The notes under the pieces were generated by a model. That model saw nothing but the letters and a program-made list of their open reading frames with translations, was not told the DNA's origin and did not search any database. A stretch of 64,000 nucleotides of DNA from NCBI GenBank assembly GCA_004102645.1, contig CP034928.1:868001-932000 (forward strand), given 5' to 3'. This stretch comes from Candidatus Bipolaricaulis sibiricus. Its GTDB lineage: Bacteria > Bipolaricaulota > Bipolaricaulia > Bipolaricaulales > Bipolaricaulaceae. Shown here one piece after another: positions 38,127 through 43,486 of this stretch (its first letter is position 1; each line of letters opens with the position of its first letter). The translations under genes were made by a program, and so were the position numbers.

Positions 38127-39158
38127 ATGGCAGCAACCGATCTAAGGGGGCGGGACTTCATCACCTTGATGGAGTTCGATCGCGAGGAAGTGGAAACGAT
38201 TCTGGACACGGCACACGACATCAAGCGGAAGTGGATCCGCGGGGAACCCCACCGGCTCCTCGAGGACAAAACCCTGTTCATGCTGTTCTACAACCGCTCG
38301 CTGCGGACGCGGAACTCGTTTGAGGCTGGGATGACGCAGCTCGGCGGGCACGCCCACTTCCTTGAGCCGGACGCGGTGTACACTCCGGCCCTGCCTGGCG
38401 AAGAGAAGGCCTACTCTACGGAACGGATCTCCGACGTGGCACGGGTGTTGGCCGAGATGGGCCACGGGATCGCCATCCGCATCTACGGCAAGCACACCGG
38501 ATGGAGGTACGGGAAGGGCAACCTCCTCATCCGCGAGTTTGCGCGTTGGTCGCGGGTCCCCGTGATCAACATGGAGGACGACATGTACCACCCGTGCCAG
38601 GCCCTCGCGGACGTCATGGTCATGCAAGAGAAGCTGGGCGACCTCCGGGGGAAGAAGTTTGTCATGAGCTGGGCGTACTCCGGGTCAGTGGAGAAGCCGC
38701 TCGCGGTTCCCCAGTCGGCCATCATCGGGGCCAGTTTCTTCGGAATGGACATCACCCTCGCCCATCCCAAGGGCCTCGAGCTCGACCCGAAGGTCCTCGA
38801 GTTCACGAAGAAGAACGTCAGGAAGAACGGCGGGGCGTTCAAGATCGTCCACGACATGGACGAGGCGTTCAAAGGCGCGGTGGCGGTGTACCCCAAGGCG
38901 TGGACGAGCCAGCCCACGGACGGAAAGACGCCCATGGACCCGGAGAAGGCGAAGGCGATCTTCGAGGCGAACAAGCACTGGATCACCACGAAGGAGAAGA
39001 TGGAGCTCACGAACGACGCCATCTACATGCACTGCCTTCCTGCCGACCGGGGGATGGAGGTCACGGACGAGGTCATGGACGGTCCGCACTCCGTGATCAT
39101 CGAACAGGCGGCGAACCGCCTCCACGCCCAGAAAGGCCTGATGGCGTTGATTCTGTAA
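38127..39158 (+). CDS. ygeW: Knotted carbamoyltransferase YgeW
   Basis: 343 residues. Carbamoyl-phosphate loop NRSLRTR (about 50-56), HPCQALAD (near base 38590) and HCLPADRG (near base 39030). The long insert with WAYSGSVEKPLAVPQS matches the YgeW / knotted-transcarbamylase branch, not OTCase or ATCase. In E. coli ygeW lies in the purine-catabolic yge cluster. The acceptor of the carbamoyl group has not been settled by what can be read here. GGAGG sits upstream. About 95 bases separate it from the paralogous next gene. Confidence 0.9.
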   Translation: MAATDLRGRDFITLMEFDREEVETILDTAHDIKRKWIRGEPHRLLEDKTLFMLFYNRSLRTRNSFEAGMTQLGGHAHFLEPDAVYTPALPGEEKAYSTERISDVARVLAEMGHGIAIRIYGKHTGWRYGKGNLLIREFARWSRVPVINMEDDMYHPCQALADVMVMQEKLGDLRGKKFVMSWAYSGSVEKPLAVPQSAIIGASFFGMDITLAHPKGLELDPKVLEFTKKNVRKNGGAFKIVHDMDEAFKGAVAVYPKAWTSQPTDGKTPMDPEKAKAIFEANKHWITTKEKMELTNDAIYMHCLPADRGMEVTDEVMDGPHSVIIEQAANRLHAQKGLMALIL

Positions 39159-39253: not shown

Positions 39254-40279
39254 ATGAGTTGGTTTGATCTGGCAGGGAAGGACCTCATCAGCACCAAGGA
39301 CTGGACAAAGGAGGAGCTGGAGATCGTTCTCAAGGTGAGCGACCAGCTGAAGGGGATGTACTATGCCGGCCTCCCCCACCCCGCGCTCAAGGACAAGACG
39401 TTTCTCATGCTGTTCTTCAACACCTCCACCCGGACCCGGCTCTCGTTCGAGAGCGCAATGACCCAGCTCGGCGGGCACGCCCAGTTCGTGGCCGCCGCCG
39501 ACCTGCGGCTGTCCCTGGAGGACAAGCCGGGCGCAGGGGAGACGATTGGGGACACGGCGAAAGTGATGGCCCGCTACGCCCACGGAATCGGGATCCGGCT
39601 TCTGGAGGATAAGGTCTCTCGCTACGGGGAGGACACGGAGATCATGTACCGGTTCGCCCAGCACGCCGAGATTCCGGTCGTGAACATGGCCTCGAACATC
39701 TGGCACCCCTGCCAGGCCCTGACCGACCTCTACACGATGCGGGAGAAGCTGGGGACCGACCTCCGGGGGGTCAAGTACACCGTGATGTGGGCCTACTCGC
39801 CGTGGGCGCGGTCCCTGGGATCCGTTCAGGAGGACCTCGTCATCGCTACCCGGTTTGGGATGGACGTGACGGTCGCCCATCCCAAGGGCTACGAGCTCGA
39901 CCCGGACGTCGTTGCCCTGAGCAAGAGGTACGCCCAGGAGAGCGGGGGCAAGTTCGAGGTCACGGCCGACCTCGACGACGCGCTGAAGGGGGCGACGGTG
40001 GTCTTCCCCCGGGGGTGGATGAGCCTCCGCCGCTACGAGATCGGGAAGGAAGCCGAGATCAAGAACGCGGAGAAGTTCAGGGATTGGAAGTACACCCGAG
40101 GGCGGCAGAAGCTCGCCAAGCCGGGGTACCTCATGCACGTGATGCCCATCGACCGTGGGAACGAGGCGGACGTCGAGCTGTGTGACGACCCCGGGCTCTC
40201 CTGGATGTACGACCAGGCTGAGAACCGCCTTCACACTCAGAAGGCGATCCTCGCCCTCACGATGGGGGGGCGACTCTAG
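39254..40279 (+). CDS. Second carbamoyltransferase with an altered acceptor motif
   Basis: 341 residues. The carbamoyl-phosphate site is intact: NTSTRTR (about 56-62) and HPCQALTD (near base 39705). The acceptor-binding HCLP motif is replaced by HVMPIDRG (near base 40137), losing the Cys that OTCase uses for ornithine. Middle part WAYSPWARSLGSVQE resembles YgeW, so this is probably a duplicated YgeW-type enzyme with a different acceptor. AAGGAGGAG precedes the ATG. A shared bidirectional hairpin follows. Confidence 0.88.
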   Translation: MSWFDLAGKDLISTKDWTKEELEIVLKVSDQLKGMYYAGLPHPALKDKTFLMLFFNTSTRTRLSFESAMTQLGGHAQFVAAADLRLSLEDKPGAGETIGDTAKVMARYAHGIGIRLLEDKVSRYGEDTEIMYRFAQHAEIPVVNMASNIWHPCQALTDLYTMREKLGTDLRGVKYTVMWAYSPWARSLGSVQEDLVIATRFGMDVTVAHPKGYELDPDVVALSKRYAQESGGKFEVTADLDDALKGATVVFPRGWMSLRRYEIGKEAEIKNAEKFRDWKYTRGRQKLAKPGYLMHVMPIDRGNEADVELCDDPGLSWMYDQAENRLHTQKAILALTMGGRL

Positions 40280-40320: not shown

Positions 40321-41388
40321 CTACTCCTCAGCCAGGTAGTCTGCGAACACCCGGGCCAAGCGGGCAAACCGCTCTACGAACGCACGTGCGCTCGCCATGG
40401 TCACACCATCCCCGACGTACAGGTCTGTCTCCAGTGCCACGTCGCCCTCATTGTCGACAAAGGCTCGTGATCCCCGCGTGAGCCTGTTCCAAGCGTTCAC
40501 GGTCTCACAGGGCACGCGGCCTCCAGTGGTCCAGCCCGCGTAGAGGCCTAGGTACCTGAACCGACCTGGAGTCTCTTCCACTGCGTCGTCCACCGACAGA
40601 ACCGCGGCAAGACCATCCAGGTAGAGAACCCACACCGGGTCGCCGTAGGAGTCCGTCCGCCGGTCGAAGGTCAGTCGGAGATCGACCAGGATCTCCTCGA
40701 TCTCGGGCACCCCGAGGTCATGGACCACCTCGCTATCACCCGTCGGCCCGCTCAAAGACCCGGTCGCGAACCCGAGCGCGTTGCGCAGAAGCTGGGCCGT
40801 GTCCGGCGTGTACTCGAAGAGATCGAACCCGAGCATGTGAACCGCACCGCCGCCCGTCTTCCACGTGAACACGACGGGGGCCCTATCGAACGTGTCCCAC
40901 ACCAGGATCACGGAGTCGTCGGGGAGGCCAGAGAAGTCCGTGCTGCCGTCTGGCCCCTGGAACGCGAGGGACACGCCGGCGGTCAACGGATGCCCAGGCA
41001 CTGCCACTGCCAGGTCTGCCCCTGTGACATCGTAGCCGTCATTGACATCCCACAGCCCAGCCCCACGGAGGATGTCCTCCGCTCCCTTGCTGTAGCTCAT
41101 CCCAACGATACGACCTCCTCGCGCGAGGAAGGCCCGGATGACGCTGCTCATCTCGGCACCCAGTGCCACGAGGACGTCCTCGGTCGTCTCCTGTTGCTCG
41201 GGGATGAGGAGAACGCTGCGCCCTTGGAGCAGAGCCGCCAGTTCCGCGGGGTCTGTGGTCCGTGTCTCCTCCGGCCTTCCGCCAACGATCTCCACCACGT
41301 GGTCGTACTCCGGCGTGGTCCGTACGTAGGGAATCCAAGCGAGGATCGCTGTTAGCACTGCTACTGCCATCGCACTTGCCGTCTGCAT
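40321..41388 (-). CDS. Exported protein: GATase-like domain plus YbjN domain
   Basis: 355 residues. A signal peptide or anchor (about 1-20), then a region (about 30-205) resembling ThuA/BPL-N-type glutamine-amidotransferase-like folds (IPEQQETTEDVLVALG, GRIVGMSYSKGAEDIL). The C-terminal part (about 215-350) matches the YbjN family (LGLYAGWTTG, WNRLTRGSRAFVDNEGDVALETDLYVGDG). YbjN proteins have a chaperone-like secretion-tunnel fold with unclear function. The combination is unusual. A TATACT box (41438-41433, minus strand) and AAAGGAGGA lie upstream. Confidence 0.75.
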   Translation of the reverse strand: MQTASAMAVAVLTAILAWIPYVRTTPEYDHVVEIVGGRPEETRTTDPAELAALLQGRSVLLIPEQQETTEDVLVALGAEMSSVIRAFLARGGRIVGMSYSKGAEDILRGAGLWDVNDGYDVTGADLAVAVPGHPLTAGVSLAFQGPDGSTDFSGLPDDSVILVWDTFDRAPVVFTWKTGGGAVHMLGFDLFEYTPDTAQLLRNALGFATGSLSGPTGDSEVVHDLGVPEIEEILVDLRLTFDRRTDSYGDPVWVLYLDGLAAVLSVDDAVEETPGRFRYLGLYAGWTTGGRVPCETVNAWNRLTRGSRAFVDNEGDVALETDLYVGDGVTMASARAFVERFARLARVFADYLAEE

Positions 41389-41467: not shown

Positions 41468-42691
41468 GTGGATCCTATCGTGCTCGCCGCGGAACTGGTA
41501 CAAGCGGGGCCGATCTGCGATCGGTGCCTGGGGCGGCGGTTCGCCCAACTCGGGACCGGGATTCCGAATCTAGAACGGGGTCAGTCGCTCCGGGCGGCCG
41601 GAGGTGGGGGAACGTCCCGTCCGGAACAACGGTGCTGGGTTTGCGAAGGCATATGGGCTTCTCTGACCAATCATGCCCGACGAGCCGCGGAGCTTGGGGC
41701 AGAGTTCGAGTTCAGGACATTCCTGTTCGGGGTGCGCCTTTCGCCGCGCCAGGAGGCCGTGGAGGAGTTCCTCGATCAAGAGTTCCCCTCGCCATGGGCT
41801 GAGCCGTTCAAGCGCGACGCGAACCGGGAGCTCGGCAAAGCGTTCGAGCGCGTATTGGCTGCACAGGGGCGGACGGCGACGGTGGACTTCGCGCGTCCCG
41901 ACGTCCAGTTCACGGTGGACCTCGAGACGGGGGCAATCGCGCTCACCGTGGCGCCCGTGTTCTTCTACGGCCGGTACCGGAAACTCGCGCGGGGGATCCC
42001 CCAGACCCACTGGCCGTGCCGGAGCTGCCGGGGCCGGGGTTGCGCGAGCTGCGGGGGGACGGGGAAGCAGTACCCGACCTCGGTCGAGGAACTTGTGCTC
42101 CCCGCGTTTCTCGCCGCTACGGGAGGAACGGGGGGGCACCTCCACGGCGCGGGCCGGGAAGACATCGACGCGCGGATGCTCGGGCGAGGCCGACCGTTTG
42201 TGGTCGAGGTCAAGGAACCCCGGGTCCGCACAGTCGACCTGGACGCAGTGGCCCGCGCGGTGAACGCGGCAGCAGAGGGGCGCGTTGAGGTCGATGCTCT
42301 CCGGCCGGGTTCGCCCGATCTCGTGGCCCAGCTGAAGGAGGAGCACGCCGACAAGCGGTACCGGGCCCGGGTCGAGTTCGGAGAGCCGGTGGGCGAGGAG
42401 GCGTTCGCGCGAGCGCTGGGAGCGCTCGTGGGGGAGGTCGACCAGAGGACCCCGGTGCGTGTGCGCCACCGCCGCGCGGACCTCGTTCGTCGGCGACAGG
42501 TGCACGAGGCCTGCGGGCGGCTCGTGTCCCCGACCGAGGCCGAGCTGGAGATTCTCTGCGGGGGGGGGTTGTACGTGAAGGAGCTCGTCTCGGGCGACGA
42601 AGGCGCCACCCAGCCCAACCTCGCCGCCCTCCTCGGGGTCTCGGCACGGGTGGTCGAGCTCGACGTCCTGGACGTCCTCGACTCGCTCTGA
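41468..42691 (+). CDS. pus10: Archaeal/eukaryotic-type tRNA pseudouridine synthase Pus10
   Basis: 407 residues. N-terminal zinc-binding part with CDRC (near 17-20), RCWVC (near 57-61) and the CRSCRGRGCASCGGTGKQYPTSVEE block (Cys pairs near base 42020). The catalytic domain carries GREDIDARMLGRG (Asp within the pseudouridine-synthase core), RPFVVEVKEPR, and the C-terminal YVKELVSGDEG with PNLA. This is the Pus10 pattern. In archaea it makes pseudouridine 54 and 55 in tRNA; in bacteria TruB does position 55 and Pus10 is very rare. The GTG start follows a TATAAT box by 6 bases. Confidence 0.92.
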   Translation: MDPIVLAAELVQAGPICDRCLGRRFAQLGTGIPNLERGQSLRAAGGGGTSRPEQRCWVCEGIWASLTNHARRAAELGAEFEFRTFLFGVRLSPRQEAVEEFLDQEFPSPWAEPFKRDANRELGKAFERVLAAQGRTATVDFARPDVQFTVDLETGAIALTVAPVFFYGRYRKLARGIPQTHWPCRSCRGRGCASCGGTGKQYPTSVEELVLPAFLAATGGTGGHLHGAGREDIDARMLGRGRPFVVEVKEPRVRTVDLDAVARAVNAAAEGRVEVDALRPGSPDLVAQLKEEHADKRYRARVEFGEPVGEEAFARALGALVGEVDQRTPVRVRHRRADLVRRRQVHEACGRLVSPTEAELEILCGGGLYVKELVSGDEGATQPNLAALLGVSARVVELDVLDVLDSL

Positions 42692-42742: not shown

Positions 42743-43486
42743 ATGCTTGTTGATCGACTTGATCAGTACTTCCAGCGCGAGGAGCGGACCCGACCCCGGG
42801 ACTACTTCTACGTGAGCGAGGTCGGCAAGTGCCCGCGCCAGATCTACTACTCGATCAAGGGCTTCCCCCGCCCACCGCTCGATGGCCTCACCGCACGCAA
42901 GCTCGCGGTGGGCGACGACGCTCACAAGCGCCTCGTCCAAGCCCTGTACGGGATGGGGATCGTCGTGGCTGCGGAGGCGCCAATCCCCCCGGGGAACCTG
43001 TTCCACGGCCGGTGTGACGTGATCGTGTCCCTCGACGGCAGGAACTACGTCGTCGAGATCAAGACCGCCCATCCGTACAGCTTCAATCAAATGGCCTCCG
43101 GGCCGCGCCGCGACCACTACCTCCAGCTTCAGCTCTACCTGCACTACTTCGGGATCCCTCAGGGGATCGTGCTCGCCGAGAACAAGGCGACCCAGGAGCT
43201 ACGGGAGTTCGTGGTGCCCCTCGACGGGGACGAGGTCGGACGCGTCCTCCGATCCTTCGAGCGCCTGCACGGCACGATCTTCGTCGCGGGGAAGCTCCCG
43301 CCCGTTCCGGGTTCCGAGGAGAAGCGGGACTGGGAGTTCGACCAGTGTCGCTACTGCCCGTACGTCGCGTTCTGCAGGGAGGACGTGGAGGAACTGCCAG
43401 GCGGGCTCCCTCCGGAGGAGCCGGAAACCGTCCCCGCGCCCGCCGCTGAAGACCGTCGCTTCACCCTGTTCGACGAGCTCACCTGA
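42743..43486 (+). CDS. Cas4-like PD-(D/E)XK nuclease with a probable Fe-S cluster
   Basis: 247 residues. RecB-type nuclease core: GRCDVIVSLDGRNYVVEIKT (Asp, Glu-x-Lys; near base 43008). One Cys near the N-terminus (GKCPRQIYYS, about 32) and three at the C-terminus (CRYCPYVAFC, near base 43350) match the four-Cys 4Fe-4S arrangement of Cas4 and AddB nucleases. It is not part of the CRISPR locus 11 kb away, which has its own cas4. Such solo Cas4-like proteins may act in repair or be remnants of mobile elements. A C-terminal Pro/Glu-rich tail is unconserved. Confidence 0.85.
   Translation: MLVDRLDQYFQREERTRPRDYFYVSEVGKCPRQIYYSIKGFPRPPLDGLTARKLAVGDDAHKRLVQALYGMGIVVAAEAPIPPGNLFHGRCDVIVSLDGRNYVVEIKTAHPYSFNQMASGPRRDHYLQLQLYLHYFGIPQGIVLAENKATQELREFVVPLDGDEVGRVLRSFERLHGTIFVAGKLPPVPGSEEKRDWEFDQCRYCPYVAFCREDVEELPGGLPPEEPETVPAPAAEDRRFTLFDELT

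Follow-up and report, generated by a model that had tools for sequence, protein, structure and literature searches.

Archaeal-type Pus10 and TrmY genes in place of TruB and TrmA/TrmFO in the bacterial phylum Candidatus Bipolaricaulota

In the little-studied bacterial phylum Candidatus Bipolaricaulota, TruB has been replaced by the archaeal-type pseudouridine synthase Pus10; at the gene level, this replacement is close to certain. The gene under study lies in a 64,000-nucleotide stretch of the genome of Candidatus Bipolaricaulis sibiricus (contig CP034928.1, positions 868,001 to 932,000 of the forward strand), referred to below as the window. According to our explanation, Pus10 would act in place of TruB as the tRNA Ψ55 synthase throughout the phylum and, in most of it, would also convert U54 to Ψ54, which TrmY would then methylate to m1Ψ54. 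By the joint action of the two enzymes, these bacteria would have a T-loop with m1Ψ54-Ψ55 instead of T54-Ψ55. Archaea are the most likely source of both genes, which would have entered the phylum ahead of the split of its sampled lineages, with truB and trmA/trmFO presumably lost. A single genus, designated g6, appears to have lost TrmY and gained TrmFO; its Pus10 has probably become restricted to U55, which would leave U54 free for conversion to m5U. Taken as a whole (Pus10 and TrmY in place of TruB and TrmA/TrmFO, an archaeal-like m1Ψ54-Ψ55 T-loop, and the switch in g6), we consider this explanation highly probable.

Pus10 has been stated to be absent from bacteria (PMC7912444, PMC9957541, PMC5682645), and no report of a bacterial Pus10, or of Bipolaricaulota in connection with Pus10 or tRNA modification, was found in the openly licensed literature. 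Priority is not certain, since this search covered openly licensed literature only and the genes would already carry these names through automatic annotation. The novelty, as judged from the genomes, is one of setting, namely the apparent replacement of TruB and TrmA/TrmFO by an archaeal-type Pus10-TrmY pair in a bacterial phylum.

The pus10 gene and its product

The gene and its main features are as follows (window positions):

41468..42691, plus strand: pus10, archaeal-type tRNA pseudouridine(54/55) synthase; 407 aa, GTG start, intact ORF
41516..41644, plus strand: N-terminal Cys pairs C17-x2-C20 and C56-x2-C59, likely a zinc site; conserved without change in 138-139 of the 141 Pus10 sequences aligned from bacteria and archaea
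41675..41920, plus strand: THUMP domain, residues 70-151 (PF22023, E 1.8e-16)
41960..42676, plus strand: Pus10 catalytic domain, residues 165-403 (PF21238, E 1.7e-59)
42017..42052, plus strand: second Cys4 cluster, C184, C187, C192, C195; invariant in 140 of 141 sequences
42071..42073, plus strand: Tyr202; Tyr in 134/134 sequences outside genus g6, Ala or Ser in 7/7 of g6
42161..42163, plus strand: Asp232, predicted catalytic Asp in GREDIDARMLG; invariant in 141/141 and aligned with the Asp of GREDVDVR in human PUS10
42206..42208, plus strand: Glu247; Glu in 133/134 sequences outside genus g6, 0/7 in g6 (Ser, Thr, or Lys there)

The GTG start is supported by homologues, which start at the same VDP- position; a longer ORF with an ATG start at 41387 found no such support. 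The 407-aa product scored 460 bits against the Pus10 equivalog TIGR01213 (cut-off 200, E 5e-138). Both Pfam domains, the archaeal Pus10 THUMP and Pus10_C, were found in one chain, with the N-terminal THUMP part fused to the catalytic domain. The sequence-only reading of this DNA had recognized Pus10 by three motifs and the N-terminal Cys pairs, and all of these are present, the motifs being located at residues 229-239 (GREDIDARMLG), 242-252 (RPFVVEVKEPR), and 369-379 (YVKELVSGDEG). Alignment of the 141 sequences from bacteria and archaea showed little or no variation in the GREDxD motif, the N-terminal Cys pairs, the second Cys4 cluster, and the C-terminal motif. Asp232 is presumably equivalent to Asp344 of human PUS10. 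The second Cys4 cluster had gone unmentioned in the sequence-only reading.

The top sequence match in the PDB was human PUS10. An AlphaFold2 model of the protein (pLDDT 93.9, pTM 0.85) also had human PUS10 as its best Foldseek match (2v9k, E 2.3e-33, TM 0.78), followed by TruA, PUS3, and Cbf5/TruB enzymes. The nearest named relatives were from Candidatus Bipolaricaulota/Acetothermia (85 to ~50% identity), with archaea next at ~49% or less. By every sequence test applied, the protein appears as an ordinary member of its family, and its novelty lies in its setting. The gene probably encodes a functional Pus10, in keeping with the high probability given to the explanation as a whole.

Host genome and gene neighbourhood

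The host contig is a single 1.70-Mb sequence, 99.83% complete with 0.08% contamination, and its 16S rRNA gene scored 1436.6 bits with the bacterial model RF00177 vs. 1005 with the archaeal model. For Candidatus Bipolaricaulis, from anaerobic digesters, the first closed genome in the phylum has been described (PMC6092417). Mis-binning from an archaeon, which would have undone the earlier reading of pus10 as a gene in a bacterial genome, can be set aside because this genome is a complete, single-contig, bacterial one.

No conserved operon partner of pus10 was found across the phylum. A Cas4-like PD-(D/E)XK nuclease (window 42743-43486) comes next after pus10 in near relatives, genus g6 among them, and was not found adjoining it elsewhere in the phylum. 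Upstream, tandem carbamoyltransferase paralogues (window 38127-39158 and 39254-40279) adjoin an amino-acid kinase; the former passes the N-acetylornithine carbamoyltransferase cut-off, and the latter passes none of the curated cut-offs listed. Transfer of pus10 on a plasmid was considered and rejected, the sole match being one haloarchaeal record with 28.8% identity.

Distribution of T-loop enzymes in Bipolaricaulota

The survey covered 100 Bipolaricaulota genomes, 38 of them of high quality, and 14 controls (ten bacteria and four archaea). Several genomes of the window's class are the same as named Bipolaricaulota/Acetothermia records, as seen from identical Pus10 sequences. Pus10 was detected in 85 of the 100 genomes, including 35 of the 38 high-quality ones; the ten bacterial controls had none. 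The three high-quality genomes lacking it (G006, G054, and G083) are fragmented and have TrmY, so the gap is probably due to missing sequence. TrmY was found in 79/100 genomes (35/38 high-quality), including that of the window; among the controls, only three archaea were positive.

The TruB family was absent from all 100 genomes, the window genome included, while the same search found TruB or Cbf5 in 14/14 controls. A locus-based search, which covered 16 bacterial Pus10 carriers (some of them probably the same genomes) and four archaeal genomes, likewise found no TruB in the former and Cbf5 in the latter. In bacteria with the infB-DUF503-rbfA gene order, truB normally follows rbfA; the window genome has infB, DUF503, and rbfA in this order and no truB after rbfA. 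No genome of the 100 had a TrmA/RumA protein over the cut-off. Full-length TrmFO was present in seven of them, all belonging to genus g6, and passed the equivalog cut-offs (TIGR00137, 608 vs. 428.65; NF003739, 616.5 vs. 262). RluA/RsuA enzymes occurred in 96/100 Bipolaricaulota (38/38 high-quality) and in all ten bacterial controls, which indicates that the searches work in these genomes; the window genome has one synthase of this type. TruA is normally near-universal in bacteria. It was found over the cut-off in 0/100 Bipolaricaulota, a result slightly weaker than the others since the TruA model missed C. glutamicum among the controls; searching the window genome by motif gave no TruA either.

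The sequence-only reading had suggested that the rest of the genome be checked for truB and trmFO/trmA and had raised the possibility of a switch from TruB. With TruB and TrmA absent and TrmFO limited to one genus, that possibility gains gene-level support (TruB 0/100, Pus10 85/100), and the effect is larger than proposed, extending to the entire phylum.

TrmY of Bipolaricaulota

The trmY gene of the window genome lies at contig positions ~503,572-504,159 on the minus strand. Its product passes the equivalog NF002560 by a narrow margin (188.7 vs. a cut-off of 183); in the PDB, its best match was archaeal MJ1640 (112 bits), and Vibrio VC_A1059 scored 60 bits. The family COG1901 includes a bacterial branch of unknown function (PMC5041015), which is why the archaeal signature residues matter. 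The bacterial TrmY clade retains residues that are invariant in the archaeal enzyme, among them G27, R28, D30, R34, S43, H44, and P74-D-E-R77, and the Vibrio protein differs at all of them except the Glu of PDER. In the TrmY tree, the Vibrio protein was set off by a branch of 5.7 changes per column; TrmY of the window genome sides with archaeal TrmY rather than with the Vibrio type of COG1901, of which one sequence was compared.

For TrmY to act, the tRNA must first have been pseudouridylated by Pus10 (PMC9508554). Across Bipolaricaulota, TrmY and Pus10 co-occur, and their Pus10 would supply the Ψ54. Four archaea with no real Pus10 match also had no TrmY. Among the sampled archaea, at least 22 genomes have pus10 and trmY no more than ~170 bp apart. 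In the window genome, the distance is 406 kb, so an operon link does not exist there.

Phylogeny and origin of the two genes

In the maximum-likelihood tree of 96 Pus10 sequences, which is unrooted and in which archaea are represented by one phylum-level group, all 54 bacterial sequences fell on one side of a single branch with a support of 100/98 and in 100% of bootstraps. The TrmY tree also contained one bacterial clade (support 89/88). Pus10 loci labelled Thermotoga, Caldisericota, and Atribacteria (L007, L016, and L052; public MAG records) nested inside Bipolaricaulota, so these labels are probably wrong, and among the best 80 loci no convincing case of Pus10 in another bacterial phylum remained. 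A tree of this kind had been proposed in the sequence-only reading as a way to refute transfer from archaea, should the protein fall within another bacterial family. No such placement was found among the best 80 loci; the bacterial sequences formed one clade, and transfer from archaea holds at the gene level for Pus10 and TrmY alike, both phylum-wide and each a single clade.

The simplest reading of these trees is one ancient acquisition each of Pus10 and TrmY before the sampled lineages diverged, and the direction of transfer was most likely from archaea to bacteria. Since the tree is unrooted and one archaeal group was sampled, the direction follows from the distribution: almost every archaeon sampled has Pus10, and all ten bacterial controls lack it. 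The same tree, with bacterial and archaeal Pus10 on opposite sides of one branch, would also suit vertical inheritance from the common ancestor of bacteria and archaea followed by loss in other bacteria, with no transfer at all. This is unlikely, as it would require parallel losses over the bacterial phyla, now represented by ten Pus10-free controls, and again for TrmY. That pus10 is archaeal contamination of metagenome bins is hardly credible. Many of the relatives are indeed MAGs, some with wrong phylum labels, but the window lies within a complete single contig with a bacterial 16S rRNA gene, the genes beside pus10 are common to close relatives, and the 54 bacterial Pus10 sequences form a separate, well-supported clade.

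tRNA substrates and the predicted T-loop

ARAGORN detected 46 candidate tRNA genes in the window genome, 45 of them with a normal seven-base T-loop. In these 45, U54 was present in 44 and U55 in all. The exception is tRNA-Gly(GCC) (contig C1:687545-687620), which has A at position 54 and therefore cannot carry Ψ54 or m1Ψ54. The sole convincing tRNA-Asn(GUU) gene found (C1:1015090-1015423, L175:3090-3423, outside the window) has its anticodon loop split by a 258-bp intron, which belongs to group I according to Rfam (RF00028, 62.9 bits).

In an E. coli strain lacking truB and trmA, M. jannaschii Pus10 gives Ψ54 as well as Ψ55; P. furiosus Pus10 gives Ψ55 only, beside m5U54, and human PUS10 forms mainly Ψ54 beside TRUB1 (PMC7912444). 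Because of the P. furiosus enzyme, Pus10 alone is no proof of Ψ54. From the genes present, formation of Ψ55 by Pus10 in Bipolaricaulota is very likely, and m1Ψ54 in their tRNA is likely. The archaeal-like T-arm suggested in the sequence-only reading is borne out in gene content (TrmY 79/100, Pus10 85/100).

Two other assignments of the sites were weighed against this one. Following the P. furiosus precedent (PMC7912444), Pus10 could form Ψ55 only and leave U54 unmodified, and TrmY could act on another pseudouridine or be a COG1901 enzyme with some other target; a bacterial COG1901 methylase of unknown function does exist (PMC5041015), and pus10 and trmY are not adjacent in the window genome. 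We find this improbable: the TrmY in question is of the archaeal type, with the invariant archaeal residues and 5.7 changes per column from the Vibrio protein, it requires Ψ54 made by Pus10 (PMC9508554), and it co-occurs with Pus10 phylum-wide but is lacking from the genus that gained an m5U54 enzyme. Conversely, Pus10 could be limited to Ψ54, as human PUS10 mainly is in the presence of TRUB1 (PMC7912444), and another enzyme, e.g., a repurposed RluA-type synthase such as the one in the window genome, could make Ψ55. This is very improbable, given that Ψ55 is a product of those archaeal Pus10 enzymes for which reviews describe in vitro assays (PMC7912444), that all ten bacterial controls have RluA/RsuA enzymes, for which no new role is required, and that Pus10 is retained in genus g6, where, with m5U54 predicted, it would be left with no substrate. 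Formation of both Ψ55 and Ψ54 by Pus10, followed by TrmY, remains our preferred reading.

Genus g6 and family f2

Genus g6 is the only Bipolaricaulota genus with TrmFO, and TrmY was found in 0/8 of its genomes. Its Pus10 uniquely replaces P178, Y202, V245, and E247, positions which are 93-100% conserved in all other sequences. Thirteen other clades were tested for such replacements: f2/g14, also TrmY-less, had three, and the rest had none or one. At the position of Tyr202, human PUS10 has Leu. The g6 replacements would fit an enzyme that, like Pus10 of P. furiosus, no longer competes for U54, and a switch of specificity to Ψ55 is plausible from the residue pattern. Loss of TrmY alone as the cause of the residue changes was not supported: TrmY-less archaea keep P178, Y202, M237, and, with one exception, E247, so the change in g6 tracks the gain of TrmFO at best. 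The pattern counts as one event since it comes from a single lineage.

Family f2 (G040-G045; Pus10 loci L300-L304) has Pus10 and neither TrmY nor TrmFO. The nearly invariant Met237 is replaced by Cys or Thr in its Pus10.

We lean towards a history in which the whole phylum had m1Ψ54-Ψ55 by means of Pus10 and TrmY and one genus would have gone back to m5U54, its Pus10 narrowed through changes at Y202, E247, and P178, in parallel to Pyrococcus.

Significance and comparison with known systems

The T54-Ψ55 pair is among the most conserved features of bacterial tRNA. A phylum-wide swap of its enzymes for an unrelated archaeal pair would mean that the chemistry of the tRNA elbow is exchangeable across domains and, if our explanation is true, would place N1-methylpseudouridine in bacterial tRNA. 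The TrmY-bearing, TrmY-less, and TrmFO-bearing lineages offer natural comparisons for the Pus10 residues deciding between U54 and U55. That TruA, too, seems to have been lost from the phylum bears on how little tRNA pseudouridylation a bacterium needs.

Compared to the bacterial TruB plus TrmA/TrmFO system, the target positions 55 and 54 are the same, but the enzymes are unrelated, and TruB and TrmA are missing in all 100 genomes. Compared to archaeal Pus10 (TIGR01213, COG1258), the window protein is full-length, has the same domains, Cys sites, and active site, and scores above the curated cut-off; the differences are a bacterial host devoid of TruB/Cbf5, whereas the tested archaea keep Cbf5, and a separate, well-supported clade. 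TrmY of the window genome, like the archaeal one (NF002560, PF04013; MJ1640), passes the equivalog cut-off, and its bacterial clade keeps the signature residues; it differs in having a bacterial host and, in the window genome, in not being located beside pus10, unlike in many archaea. Vibrio VC_A1059 (bacterial COG1901) shares the SPOUT superfamily and the Pfam family with TrmY of the bacterial clade but is very distant from it and lacks most of the archaeal signature residues. Finally, genus g6 resembles P. furiosus, in which Pus10 makes Ψ55 and TrmA makes m5U54: it likewise combines Pus10 with a U54 methylase and has no TrmY, but its methylase is the folate-dependent TrmFO, and its host is bacterial.
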